Source: Spirochaetota bacterium (GTDB lineage: Bacteria; Spirochaetota; UBA12135; COTS27; JAFLEE01). Taken from it: 64,000 nucleotides of DNA. Position 1 is the first letter of the stretch. Each line of letters opens with the position of its first letter. The stretch is from the NCBI GenBank assembly GCA_017302015.1, contig JAFLEE010000013.1, forward strand, positions 19,792 through 83,791, in the 5' to 3' direction. The translations under genes and the position numbers were made by a program. This document shows positions 59,416 to 64,000 of the stretch, piece after piece. The notes under the pieces are model-generated. The model was not told the origin of the DNA. It ran no database searches and was given only the letters and a program-made list of their open reading frames with translations.

Positions 59416-59431
59416 TTGGCACACTCTTTGC
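59416..59431 (+). promoter_or_regulatory. sigma54 (-24/-12) promoter of the Amt-sensor operon
   Basis: TTGGCAC (59416-59422) and TTTGC (59427-59431) put the invariant GG (59418-59419) and GC (59430-59431) exactly 10 bp apart, the sigma54 geometry. Predicted start near 59443, 34 nt before the ATG at 59477. No sigma70-type box competes in this gap. An enhancer-binding activator would be required. Confidence 0.8.
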
Positions 59432-59476
59432 CTAGTATCAGGTGGACGAGCCAATCGGACGGCCCGCCCGCCGAAC

Positions 59477-59872
59477 ATGAGCAAGATTCATCCATCAACC
59501 GCCGCCCGAAACTTCGTCGCCGGCCTTTCCCTGCTCGCCACGCTCTCCGCCGCCCCGGCCTACCGGGTCACCCGAGTAGAGGGGCGGGTCTTCTGGGTCC
59601 AAGCCGACCAGAAGGAACGTCGACCGGCCCTGCCCGGAACTCCCCTCGCCGCGGGCGATCTGCTGGTGGCCCTCGAGGGCGGCTCCTGCCTCTTCTCCCG
59701 TGAATCCGGCCCGGGCGCCTGGTGGCTCGGCCCCCGCAGCGCGGCGCGGATGGCGGCGAGCGCGGGGGCGGTCGGACCGGCTTGCCTCGCGGGCTCCTTG
59801 CACCCGGTGGAAAAGAACCGAGAGGGCGAGGAAGGGGCCCGGGCCGAGAACCGGGCGGGAGCGGCCCCGTGA
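59477..59872 (+). CDS. small exported protein, first gene of the signalling operon
   Basis: A 131-residue protein with a signal peptide (AARNFVAGLSLLATLSAAPAY). The mature part begins VTRVEGRVFWVQADQKERRP and PLAAGDLLVALEGGSCLF, which resembles the start of FecR-type domains (a V-x-G-x-V strand followed by L-x-x-G-D) but is too short for a complete one. The C-terminus is charged. The TGA overlaps the GTG of the receiver gene (GTGA). It may be a periplasmic accessory of the sensor; this is inference. Confidence 0.65.
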   Translation: MSKIHPSTAARNFVAGLSLLATLSAAPAYRVTRVEGRVFWVQADQKERRPALPGTPLAAGDLLVALEGGSCLFSRESGPGAWWLGPRSAARMAASAGAVGPACLAGSLHPVEKNREGEEGARAENRAGAAP

Positions 59873-60258
59873 AGAACCGCCTCCTGATCGTCGACGATAG
59901 CGTCATCATGCGCCGGGTGCTGGAGAAGTACGCCCGCGCCTTGGGCCTGGAGATCGTCGGCACCGCGGCCAACGGCCGCGACGCCCTCGGGCTCTTCGAT
60001 CGGCACAAGCCCGACCTGGTGTCCCTCGACATCACCATGCCGCTGCTCGACGGCCTCGGCTGCCTCAAGGAGATCATGGACCGTCGGCCCGAGACGAAGG
60101 TGGTGATCATCACCGCCCTCGCCGACCGGGAGACCGGCCTCGCGGCCATGCGCCTGGGCGCCAAGGGGTTCATCCAGAAGCCGTTCACCGAAGCCCAGGT
60201 TCGCGACGAGTTCGCCCAGGTGCTCGGCCTGGCGGGGGGCGCCCTTGTTGGAGACTGA
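59869..60258 (+). CDS. CheY-like single-domain response regulator
   Basis: A 129-residue receiver domain: acidic pair in RLLIVDDSVIMRRVL, phosphoacceptor D54 in PDLVSLDITMPLLDG, T in VVIITALA, and K104 in GAKGFIQKPF. No output domain, so it acts by protein-protein contact or as a phosphate relay. GTG start at 59869 overlaps the previous stop and follows GGGAG. Its stop lies inside the start region of the CheX-like gene, and the kinase fusion is the third gene down, making it the natural receiver partner. Confidence 0.93.
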   Translation: MKNRLLIVDDSVIMRRVLEKYARALGLEIVGTAANGRDALGLFDRHKPDLVSLDITMPLLDGLGCLKEIMDRRPETKVVIITALADRETGLAAMRLGAKGFIQKPFTEAQVRDEFAQVLGLAGGALVGD

Positions 60259-60691
60259 GCTCAAGGCGTTCATCGATGTCGTCATCCGCTATTTCTCCCA
60301 GGTGACGGGCGAGACCGTGGCCATGGGCGTGCCCTACGTGAAGGCCCAAGACCCCGTGCTCCTCGATTTCACCGGGGTCATCGGCATCAGCGGGGCGCGC
60401 CGCGGCTGCCTCTGCGTGACCTCCCCGCGGGAGATGCTCCAGGCCCTCGCCGAGTCGCTCCTGGGGCCCGACGGGCGGGACGAGGCGGCGGTGGCCGACG
60501 TGGTGGGCGAGATGGCCAACACCATCGCCGGCAACGCCCGCGAGGCCTTCGGGAGCGCCTTCATGATCTCGGTGCCGGTGGTGCTCCACGGCGCGCCGAG
60601 CGACATCACGATCAAACTGAAGCCGCCGGTCTTCGTCGTCCCGATCCAGTGGCGCGCCTGGCGAAGCTTCCTGCTCATCGGGCTGGAATAG
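60245..60691 (+). CDS. CheX-like receiver phosphatase
   Basis: A 148-residue CheX-family protein. The catalytic E-x-x-N signature is seen in VADVVGEMANTIAGNAREAF, and the fold context (FSQVTGETVAMGVPY at the N-terminus, IGISGARRGCLCVTSP in the middle) agrees. CheX proteins dephosphorylate CheY~P. Start TTG 60245 or 60248, overlapping the receiver gene by about 10 bases; the RR stop at 60256-60258 is inside. Together with the receiver and kinase it completes a phosphorylation-removal arm. Confidence 0.88.
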   Translation: MLETELKAFIDVVIRYFSQVTGETVAMGVPYVKAQDPVLLDFTGVIGISGARRGCLCVTSPREMLQALAESLLGPDGRDEAAVADVVGEMANTIAGNAREAFGSAFMISVPVVLHGAPSDITIKLKPPVFVVPIQWRAWRSFLLIGLE

Positions 60692-60693
60692 CC

Positions 60694-63450
60694 ATGGAGA
60701 AGCGGCTCATCGACATCCTCTGGGTGCTCACCTCGGGGTGCCTCGTGTTCGTCATGCAGGCGGGCTTCGCCATGCTCGAGACCGGCATGACGCGCTCCAA
60801 GAACAGCATCAACGTCGCCATCAAGAATCTCACCGACTTCGGCGTCGCGGTGGTCGCCTATTGGGCCGTCGGCTTCGCCCTCATGTTCGGCCCCTCCGCC
60901 GCCGGCCTCGTCGGCGCGGGGTATTTCGCCTTCGACGCCCGCGGCGGCACCTGGCTCGCGGCCTTCTTCTTCTTCCAGGTCATGTTCTGCGGCACCGCGG
61001 CCACCATCGTCTCGGGGGCGGTGGCCGAGCGCATGCGCTTCTCGGCCTATCTCCTCAGCACGCTCCTTATCTCGGCCCTCCTCTACCCGGTCTTCGGCCA
61101 CTGGGCCTGGGGCGGGGCTCTGGAGGGCAAGGCGGCCGGCTGGCTCAACACCCTGGGTTTCGTCGATTTCGCCGGCTCCACCGTCGTGCATTCTATGGGG
61201 GGCTGGATGTCGCTGGCCCTCCTCCTCATCCTCGGCCCCCGCACGGGGCGCTTCCCGGCCGGCGGCGCCCCCCGCGCCATCCCCGGAAGCAATATCCCCG
61301 GGGCGGTCCTGGGCGCCATGCTGCTCCTCTTCGGCTGGTTCGGCTTTAACGGCGGCAGCGTGCTGGCCTTCAACGCCGACGTAGCTCCCATCATCCTCAA
61401 CACCACCCTGGCGGGCTGCAGCGGCATGGTGATGAGCCTCTTCGTCGGTTTCGCGCTGACGCGCCGCTGGAACACCGCTTTTGCCATCAACGGCTGCCTG
61501 GCGGGCCTGGTGGCCATCACCGCCGGCTGCCATGCGGTCAACGAGTGGCAGGCCCTCGTGATCGGGGCGATCGGTGGCATGGTGACCCTGGGCCTCGAGG
61601 CCCTCCTCGAGCGCCTTCGCATCGACGATGCCGTGGGCGCGATCCCCGTGCACCTCGGCGCCGGGGTCTGGGGCACCCTAGCCGTCGCCCTCTTCGGAAA
61701 CCCGGAACTCCTCAAGACCGGCCTCGGCTTCTGGGGGCAACTCGGGGCGCAAGCCCTCGGGGTGGCGGTTTGCGGGGCATGGACCTTCAGCCTCACCTGG
61801 CTCATCATGAAGGGCATCGACCGCTTCTTCCCGCTTAGGGTCACGCCCCAGGAGGAGCAGGACGGGCTCAATATCAGCGAGCACGGCTCGTCGACGGAGA
61901 TCTTCGACCTCTACCGGGTCATGGACGAGCAATCCCGCACCGGCGACCTCTCGCTTCGCGTGCCGGAGGAGCCCTTCACGGAAGTCGGCCAGATCGCCCG
62001 CCACTATAACCGGGTCATCGGGGGGCTCCAGACCCAGACCGTCGCCAAGAGCGAGTACCTCGACATCCTCGACCATGTCGCCGACGGGCTGCTCCTGGTG
62101 GACCGCGAGCTGCGCATCGGTCCCTATTACGCCAAGGCCACCGAGCAGATCCTCGAGCGCCCCGGCCTCGCGGGCCAGGGCCTCCTCGACCTCCTCGGCC
62201 CCCGCCTCCTGGAGAAGGACCGCCCGACGGTGCGCCTCTTTTTCGACATGCTCCTCGACGGGGGGAAGCCCCTGCGTTCGGTGCTCAAGCTGAGCCCCCT
62301 GCGCAAGATCGAATGCTTCTTCGAGGCCGGCGCCGCCCTGCGCAGCAAGCACCTGGATTTCCATTTCCGGCGCATCGAGCGGGGGGGGAAGGTGGAGCGC
62401 CTCATGGTGCTGGTGCGCGACGTGAGCGAGGAGGCGCGCCTGGGGGAGGCCGTGCGCCTGGAGCGCGACCGAGGCCGAAGCGAAATGGAACTCTTCTACC
62501 GCATGCTCCACGTCGATCCCGGGCTGCTGTCGGAGTTCCTCGCCGGCCTGCGGGACGGCCTGCGCGCCATCGGCTCCCTCCTGGAGGAGGAGGGCGCGGA
62601 GCGCTTACGCGAGCGCCTGCAAACGCTCCTGCGCCACGCCCACGCCTTGAAGGGCGATGCGCTCCTCCTCGACCTGGGCTTCATCGCCGACCAGGCCCAC
62701 GCCTTCGAAACCCGCATCCAGGGGCTGCTGTCGAACCCGGGGGAGATCCAGCCGGGGGATTTCCTCTCCCTCGCCATCGGCCTGAGCGAACTTCAGAAGA
62801 CCCAGGGGCAGATGGAGGCGCTGCTGGCGCGGCTTCGGGATTTCGAGAAGACCTTGGCAAGCCTCCCCGAGCGGCCCGAATCGCTCCTGGCGGCCGCCCT
62901 GCGGAATCTCGGGGAGCGAGCGGCCCGCGACGCGCAGAAAAAGGTGGACCTCGACGTCAGCGAACTCGGCGCGGTGGCCATCCCCGCCCCGGGGCGGAAA
63001 CTCGTGCGCGAACTTCTCGTCCAACTCGTGCGCAACGCCATCGCCCACGGGATCGAAGCCCCCGCCGCCCGGCGGGAAGCGGGCAAGGGGGAAACGGGCC
63101 GTATCCAGGTGGGATTCGCCCATCGGGGGCCCGGCTGGCTCCTGTGGTGCCGCGACGACGGCGGCGGCATCCGGGTGGCGGAGCTGCGGGCGCGGGCCGT
63201 CGCCTCGGGGCGCCACTCCGCCGAGGCGGTCGCCGCGCTCTCCCCCGCCGAATTGCGCGACCTGGTGTTCGAGCCCGGGATCAGCACCGCCGAGGGCGTC
63301 GACCTCCACGCGGGGCGCGGCGTCGGCCTCGATCTCGTGAAACGCTGGGTCGAGGGGATCCGGGGGAAGGTGGCGCTCTTGACCGAGCCCGGCGCCTTCA
63401 CCGAGTTCCGCATCGAACTCCCCGAAGACGCCTTCGCCGGCGAAGCCTGA
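60694..63450 (+). CDS. ammonium transporter (Amt)-PAS-Hpt-CheA-type ATPase fusion sensor kinase
   Basis: A 918-residue membrane sensor. Residues about 1-395 are an Amt/Rh channel with about 11 transmembrane helices, keeping the conserved pore twin histidines H166 (STVVHSMGG) and H320 (AIPVHLGAG). A linker (HAMP-like, RVPEEPFTEVGQIARHYNRV) and a PAS-like domain (about 455-575) follow. Then an Hpt-type helical bundle with the phosphoacceptor H650 in HALKGD, and a CheA-type HATPase with N781 (LVRNAIAHGIE), D821-D822 (RDDGGGIRVAELR) and GRGVGLDLVK. No CheW-like domain and no dimerisation domain are visible. Likely autophosphorylates on H650 in response to ammonium. Confidence 0.93.
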   Translation: MEKRLIDILWVLTSGCLVFVMQAGFAMLETGMTRSKNSINVAIKNLTDFGVAVVAYWAVGFALMFGPSAAGLVGAGYFAFDARGGTWLAAFFFFQVMFCGTAATIVSGAVAERMRFSAYLLSTLLISALLYPVFGHWAWGGALEGKAAGWLNTLGFVDFAGSTVVHSMGGWMSLALLLILGPRTGRFPAGGAPRAIPGSNIPGAVLGAMLLLFGWFGFNGGSVLAFNADVAPIILNTTLAGCSGMVMSLFVGFALTRRWNTAFAINGCLAGLVAITAGCHAVNEWQALVIGAIGGMVTLGLEALLERLRIDDAVGAIPVHLGAGVWGTLAVALFGNPELLKTGLGFWGQLGAQALGVAVCGAWTFSLTWLIMKGIDRFFPLRVTPQEEQDGLNISEHGSSTEIFDLYRVMDEQSRTGDLSLRVPEEPFTEVGQIARHYNRVIGGLQTQTVAKSEYLDILDHVADGLLLVDRELRIGPYYAKATEQILERPGLAGQGLLDLLGPRLLEKDRPTVRLFFDMLLDGGKPLRSVLKLSPLRKIECFFEAGAALRSKHLDFHFRRIERGGKVERLMVLVRDVSEEARLGEAVRLERDRGRSEMELFYRMLHVDPGLLSEFLAGLRDGLRAIGSLLEEEGAERLRERLQTLLRHAHALKGDALLLDLGFIADQAHAFETRIQGLLSNPGEIQPGDFLSLAIGLSELQKTQGQMEALLARLRDFEKTLASLPERPESLLAAALRNLGERAARDAQKKVDLDVSELGAVAIPAPGRKLVRELLVQLVRNAIAHGIEAPAARREAGKGETGRIQVGFAHRGPGWLLWCRDDGGGIRVAELRARAVASGRHSAEAVAALSPAELRDLVFEPGISTAEGVDLHAGRGVGLDLVKRWVEGIRGKVALLTEPGAFTEFRIELPEDAFAGEA

Positions 63451-63457
63451 GCCGGCG

Positions 63458-64000
63458 ATGGAAACCCCCTCCGCCATCGAGCGCGTGCAGCGCGAAGGCT
63501 ACCGGATCTTCTTCCATGCCCACGGCCACGGGATGTACCTCACGAGCCGCGAGGGCCGCTTCCTCGAGGTGAACGCGAGCCTCTGCCGCATCCTCGGCTA
63601 TTCCCGGGAGGATTTCGCCGCCCTCCACGTGAACGAGACCTATGCCTTCCCCTTGGCGCGCCGCCGCTTCCAGGCGGCGGTGGAGCGCCACGGCCGGGTG
63701 GAGCGCTACCCCGTGCGCCTGCGCCGAAAGGACGGCTCCCACGTCCAGGCCTTCCTCGACGCCTTCGTGTGGACGCTCGAGGACGGGAAGCCCGGCGGCT
63801 ATATGGGGCACGTCGTCGAACGCGTGGAGGCCCTCGACGAGGAGCATGCCGGCGCCCTCAAGTCCGGTGCGTCCCCGTTCAGCCACGCGGTGGGCGCCGC
63901 CAACGACGGCCTTTGGCAATGGATGCTCCCCGAGAAGCGCATCGCCTATAGCGCGCGATGGAAGGAGATCCTCGGCTACCGCGAAACGGAGGTGGAGGAC
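63458..64000 (+). CDS. PAS-domain sensor protein, 3' end outside window
   Basis: Begins with ATG 63458, seven bases after the kinase-fusion stop, and is open to the window edge (181 codons seen). Two PAS domains are recognisable: one in EGYRIFFHAHGHGMYLTSREG, EVNASLCRILGYSREDFA and GSHVQAFLDAFVW; the second starting at AANDGLWQWMLPEKRIAYS and ending in WKEILGYRETE at the edge. The output domain (kinase, GGDEF or other) lies beyond the window, so its action is unknown. Placement directly after the ammonium sensor suggests the same pathway. Confidence 0.8.
   Translation, partial: METPSAIERVQREGYRIFFHAHGHGMYLTSREGRFLEVNASLCRILGYSREDFAALHVNETYAFPLARRRFQAAVERHGRVERYPVRLRRKDGSHVQAFLDAFVWTLEDGKPGGYMGHVVERVEALDEEHAGALKSGASPFSHAVGAANDGLWQWMLPEKRIAYSARWKEILGYRETEVED

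Follow-up and report, generated by a model that had tools for sequence, protein, structure and literature searches.

An ammonium transporter domain fused to a CheA-type kinase core and encoded with its own receiver and CheX phosphatase in Spirochaetota

A stretch of 64,000 nucleotides from a Spirochaetota bacterium (GenBank assembly GCA_017302015.1, contig JAFLEE010000013.1, positions 19,792 to 83,791), hereafter the window, carries near its end a compact operon whose central gene joins an ammonium transporter (Amt) domain to the catalytic core of a CheA-type kinase. The product of this gene is called AmtK here. Genes for a lone CheY-like receiver and a CheX-type phosphatase lie directly upstream, and a gene for a protein with PAS and class III cyclase-homology domains follows (Table 1). 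The genes are tightly packed: cheY and cheX overlap by 14 nucleotides, two nucleotides separate cheX from the kinase gene, and seven separate the kinase gene from the fourth gene. A preliminary description of the locus had proposed a self-contained ammonium-sensing phosphorelay of Amt, PAS, Hpt and CheA-like ATPase regions with an overlapping receiver and CheX gene pair; it had missed the HAMP-like linker, the cyclase homology of the fourth gene, a sigma-54 motif and an open reading frame of 131 residues.

Table 1. Features of the AmtK operon, with positions in the window
Feature	Position	Strand	Evidence
AmtK, Amt-HAMP-PAS-Hpt-P4 kinase, 918 residues	60694..63450	+	translation, Pfam, PDB matches
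Amt receptor domain, residues 1-400	60694..61893	+	PF00909, AlphaFold2, fold matches
HAMP-like linker, residues 402-461	61897..62076	+	weak HAMP match and modelled helix-coil-helix
PAS domain, residues 465-576	62086..62421	+	weak PAS_4 match; modelled strands and helices in PAS-like order
Hpt domain, residues 611-715, phospho-acceptor H650 (62641-62643)	62524..62838	+	PF01627
CheA-type P4 ATPase, residues 773-912	63010..63429	+	HATPase_c, phmmer, Foldseek
Lone CheY-like receiver, phospho-acceptor D54	59869..60258	+	Response_reg 5.4e-27 (Pfam)
CheX-type CheY-P phosphatase, ExxN motif (E89, N92)	60245..60691	+	PF13690 5.4e-19, 68.5 bits
PAS-PAS-class III cyclase-homology protein, 498 residues, start only in the window	63458..64000	+	PAS and Guanylate_cyc matches
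Exported-looking open reading frame, 131 residues, FecR-like by eye	59477..59872	+	open reading frame call; between the sigma-54 motif and cheY
Sigma-54 (RpoN) -24/-12 motif TGGCACACTCTTTGC	59417..59431	+	only exact match in the window; predicted promoter

The kinase gene is uninterrupted by stops, and the continuous run from Amt to ATPase that had been described is a single protein. Its residues 10-400 match the Pfam family Ammonium_transp (4.5e-117) and include the twin histidines H166 (position 61189) and H320 (61651), together with W139, F98 and F218. In an AlphaFold2 model of residues 1-600 (12 sequences, mean predicted local distance difference test (pLDDT) score 87.6), 11 membrane helices are followed by a helix-coil-helix, a PAS fold and a helix leading to the Hpt domain. 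The modelled helices of the linker span 402-416 and 430-461, around a weak Pfam match to HAMP at 415-446, and the PAS_4 match at 459-582 (E 0.0066) lies below its cut-off. Profile searches of the C-terminal half recovered both of the domains expected there. The Hpt match (5e-6) exceeds the cut-off of PF01627 and contains H650 within the sequence HALKG, and the HATPase_c match (1.2e-9) places N781 in the N box and D821 in the G1 box (DDGGGI), with GRGVG as the G2 box. No HisKA domain was found in AmtK by Pfam; Hpt takes its place. When AmtK was searched against the PDB with phmmer, CheA was the only kinase matched (best 6e-21), and its profile gave a 99.9% match to CheA of its own genome. The last domain of a weaker model of residues 396-918 (pLDDT 66, 3 sequences) also matches CheA P4 (Foldseek TMt 0.70-0.76).

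AmtK resembles CheA in its P1-type Hpt domain with an HxxKG motif, in its P4 domain with CheA-type N, G1 and G2 boxes, and in its CheY and CheX partners. It differs in carrying a membrane receptor in the same chain and in the domains that are missing. As first described, CheW/P5 is absent: Pfam gave no match in AmtK at E<=1, and the chain stops directly after P4. The P2 domain was not found by Pfam either. For P3 there is no Pfam match, and the profile alignment begins only past P3 of the genome's CheA; the corresponding region of AmtK is modelled, with modest confidence, as one long and one short helix. The same genome encodes elsewhere three CheA proteins of the ordinary kind, which have CheW domains, as well as CheW, FliM, RpoN and two plain Amts. 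According to a 2023 survey, all CheA proteins contain P1, P3, P4 and P5 (PMC10782961). Since P5 is absent, P3 is undetected and a sensor of its own is present, AmtK falls outside the proteins surveyed and is not a CheA as currently defined (PMC10782961). Broadly speaking, it is a sensor Amt-kinase, though not of the HisKA type. Searches of open-access literature found neither an Amt-CheA/Hpt fusion nor this operon, though a subscription paper may exist.

The same arrangement recurs in other spirochaetes. Among the 393 Spirochaetota genomes sampled, 19, the window's own included, encode full-length AmtK or a full-length relative with 42-51% identity, and these fall in 18 of 168 genera; a twentieth is split across two contigs in a Spirochaetales metagenome-assembled genome (L026). 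All 19 loci, plus one broken locus, have cheY and then cheX directly upstream of the kinase gene. The 13 aligned kinases all share H166, H320, H650, N781 and D821, and the 13 aligned operons all share receiver D54 and CheX E89/N92. The window's receiver has the full set of expected residues, comprising an acidic pair (D9, D10), the phospho-Asp (D54), Ser/Thr (T in ITAL) and Lys (K in KPF). The PAS domain is highly divergent between relatives, and the Amt domain and linker form the conserved input part. No AmtK relative was found in 648 genomes from the phyla of Desulfosarcina, an Anaerolineae metagenome-assembled genome and Ectothiorhodospira (198, 201 and 249 genomes), so the operon appears, within the limits of sampling, to be largely confined to Spirochaetota. 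At one locus (L062, genome G182), a TAG stop interrupts the Amt portion of the Amt-kinase frame, leaving two separate open reading frames, either as a pseudogene or through an assembly error.

The Amt part of AmtK groups with sensor Amts of known structure. Ks-Amt5 of Candidatus Kuenenia stuttgartiensis is an experimentally ammonium-responsive Amt-kinase, in which ammonium binding to a non-transporting Amt alters the phosphorylation of the fused kinase (PMC5764959). Like AmtK, Ks-Amt5 (PDB 6eu6) combines an Amt receptor and a histidine kinase in one chain, and its twin histidines, filter, gate and most ammonium-site residues are kept in AmtK. Among site residues Q24, E31, N47, D50, T51, T109 and T112, the first four and T109 correspond to Q22, E29, N45, D48 and T104 of AmtK, whereas T112 is replaced by serine (S107) and T51 by phenylalanine. 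The kinase of Ks-Amt5, in contrast, is of the HisKA/DHp type and, per its authors, lacks HAMP and PAS (PMC5764959), whereas AmtK has a HAMP-like linker, PAS, Hpt and a CheA-type P4; the receiver and CheX genes of the AmtK operon are a further difference. The nearest solved Amt is Sd-Amt1 of Shewanella denitrificans (PDB 8qj3, 8qj4, 8qpf), which shares 47% identity with AmtK (Foldseek) and matches it in sequence as far as linker residue 447; its PDB entries present it as a receptor that has an ON and an OFF state. Together, Sd-Amt1 (8qj3/8qj4; template modelling (TM) score 0.95-0.96) and Ks-Amt5 (6eu6; TM 0.94) are the best fold matches of the Amt model (Foldseek). The ammonium-site residues of Ks-Amt5 looked decisive as a receptor diagnostic when compared with the genome's own two Amts, and were dropped for that purpose because 8 of 10 further stand-alone Amts of related genomes match them. 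The output domain of Sd-Amt1 is presumably a diguanylate cyclase, which differs from that of AmtK.

On this evidence, we consider it fairly probable that the operon is a dedicated ammonium sensor, namely an Amt-gated CheA-type relay with its own receiver and CheX. Anatomy, catalytic residues and strict gene order support this part of the preliminary description well; the term 'self-contained' is not supported, as a fourth, effector-like gene is often in the operon. The Amt domain would be the receptor, and possibly a transporter too. By analogy with Ks-Amt5, ammonium would be the input, and its binding would change the conformation of Amt. The HAMP-like linker and PAS would relay this change to the P4 ATPase, which would phosphorylate H650 in the Hpt domain of the same chain, and the phosphate would pass to D54 of the neighbouring receiver. 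By stripping the phosphate from the receiver, CheX would make the signal fast and reversible. In a kinase that has no P5/CheW domain, switching would fall to the built-in receptor, with no part for chemoreceptor arrays. Once phosphorylated, the receiver would act on an effector, which in some relatives may be the adjacent cyclase or SpoIIE phosphatase and in this genome may be the PAS-PAS-pseudocyclase or the flagellar motor. The sequences themselves show the domains, the catalytic residues, the conserved gene order and the promoter motif. Phosphotransfer and dephosphorylation are predicted from homology, and we infer the ligand, which way the response goes, each of the phosphotransfer steps and the output.

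Several observations weigh against such a relay. The bulky pore-plug residues Y30/F34 of Ks-Amt5 are L28/M32 in AmtK, and the pattern of ammonium-site residues, being shared with plain Amts, is no proof of receptor function; AmtK may therefore still transport. The Amt domain might then be mainly a transporter, with a kinase that reads transport flux or is regulated by PAS through redox or a small ligand, and ammonium binding would not be the signal. The retained twin histidines, Phe gate and Trp/Ser filter would suit such a protein, as would the position of PAS between Amt and kinase. The pore histidines emphasised in the preliminary description are indeed conserved and prove neither sensing nor transport. 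However, the nearest structures, Sd-Amt1 and Ks-Amt5, are those of receptors and not of transporters, the conserved input is Amt with its linker and not the very variable PAS, and two plain Amts are already encoded elsewhere in the genome. We consider a mainly transporting Amt improbable. A further difficulty concerns assembly. Amts are trimers and CheA kinases act as dimers through P3, the domain that is undetected in AmtK. Finally, no effector is recognised next door in 9 of 19 loci and one more ends at a contig end, and the receiver might serve the flagellar motor.

The last of these points defines a second alternative, in which AmtK would be a side input to flagellar chemotaxis: its phosphorylated CheY-like protein would bind the motor, giving ammonium taxis without methyl-accepting chemotaxis protein (MCP) arrays. 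The kinase core, receiver and CheX are all of the chemotaxis type, FliM and ordinary CheA/CheW are present in the genome, and the loci that lack a recognised adjacent effector would be explained. The cyclase-type gene that follows the kinase in 8 loci, and the SpoIIE-type phosphatase gene in one, argue against it. The sigma-54 motif suits nitrogen control, though sigma-54 can serve motility too. A direct motor output therefore seems rather unlikely to us.

A second-messenger output is a possibility that we hold only tentatively. Here the phosphorylated receiver would control the neighbouring class III cyclase, forming a two-protein route from ammonium to cyclic AMP or cyclic GMP. Besides the recurrence of the cyclase-type gene, its catalytic residues are intact in four loci (L048, L051, L052, L077), direct fusion to a cyclase is seen in the nearest relatives of the Amt, and a cyclase gene is retained by kinases of this group that have other sensors. 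In the window genome and in L015, L050 and L080, by contrast, these residues are degenerate. The fourth gene stops at G000:C35:84745, 954 bases beyond the window, as read from the rest of the contig, and its product was first described only as a PAS protein; PAS is present, and the cyclase homology had been overlooked. At the two metal Asp positions, the transition-state Asn and the Arg, its cyclase domain has E or A, D, L and R. Lacking the first of the two metal Asp residues and also the transition-state Asn, this domain should make no cyclic nucleotide. The product therefore probably has no cyclase activity and may bind a nucleotide or a protein. An 'ammonium-gated cyclase operon' was demoted to a rival reading for this genome on the same grounds. 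The class III cyclase-homology domain at L008:7250-8746, from which these two residues are missing, is likely a pseudocyclase, and L015, L050 and L080 are similarly degenerate. In its widest form, which we regard as doubtful, the idea would place AmtK in a class of array-free, receptor-fused CheA-type kinases in Spirochaetota, with a trimeric ammonium receptor, no P3 or P5, and a receiver that controls a class III cyclase and so turns ammonium into a nucleotide second messenger.

Receptor-type Amts are found with other outputs as well. They are fused to a class III cyclase (L018, L063, L066), to an MCP (L065, L023, L024), to HisKA-HATPase-REC-REC (L064, L019, L022) and to PAS-GGDEF-EAL (L017, L020). 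These proteins resemble AmtK in the Amt and mostly in the HAMP-like linker, and differ from it in output domains; a FTEVGQIA motif in the linker is common to most Amt fusions, irrespective of output. The Amt and its linker therefore act as a transferable receptor. The Amt-cyclase fusions (L063:5171-7297, L066:5366-7432, L018:5962-8037; Guanylate_cyc about 200-220 bits) occur in Leptospiraceae-type genomes and are candidate one-protein ammonium-to-cyclic-nucleotide systems. The Amt-MCP fusions (L065:4949-7498, L023:5920-8295, L024:5878-8340), from spirochaetes and alphaproteobacteria, are candidate ammonium chemoreceptors. Conversely, four kinases of the Hpt-P4 group (L058-L061) carry, where AmtK has its Amt, a Cache/HAMP or another membrane sensor and retain cheY and cheX, with cheX in two copies at L058-L060 and a cyclase gene nearby in the same three. 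In the tree they stand beside L052, inside the Amt group (100/98), with weak deep forks. This nesting suggests that their sensor was replaced late and that the Hpt-P4 kinase operon may be a general, sensor-swappable cassette. For the same reason, we rejected a scheme in which Amt and kinase were fused once and the non-Amt kinases form a separate related line.

The start of the operon carries a predicted sigma-54 promoter. The motif TGGCACACTCTTTGC fits GG-N10-GC with TGGCAC and TTGC, and its one exact occurrence in the window compares with 0.09 expected by chance. When the 150 nucleotides upstream of each operon were scored by the same scheme, 13 of 20 loci (the window and 12 relatives) had a site scoring at least 10/12, two of which (L053 and L055) share one genus and are non-independent. 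In 500 dinucleotide shuffles, the mean was 0.04 and the maximum 2 loci with a site, and 24 of 4,168 control tiles scored as high. The Amt-cyclase genes L063 and L018 likewise have such a site upstream, and the four non-Amt kinases (L058-L061) have none, so the promoter seems to go with the ammonium sensor and not with the kinase cassette. The operon would thus be sigma-54-linked, with promoter activity predicted. In the window, the site precedes the 131-residue reading frame and not cheY directly. This frame is joined to cheY by a 4-nucleotide GTGA overlap, consistent with translational coupling; it has no Pfam match, and no counterpart was seen at the same place in related operons. At another locus (L078:652-4551, genome G380), an open reading frame of 1299 residues, Cas9-like by its N-terminus, adjoins the operon.

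In descriptions of CheA, a CheW-type domain is always present and a built-in sensor never; in AmtK, the Hpt and P4 pair would be run from a receptor in the same chain. AmtK accordingly provides a compact setting in which to ask how a membrane protein that forms trimers can switch a kinase family known as dimers. Few partners have been identified for ammonium receptors, and no response regulator is known for Ks-Amt5. The AmtK operon groups a receiver, a phosphatase and a candidate effector, which makes the complete relay open to reconstitution in vitro. With an Amt fused to a CheA-type catalytic core, and its own receiver and phosphatase always alongside, these spirochaetes probably possess a switch devoted to ammonium sensing, one that operates independently of the usual chemoreceptor arrays.

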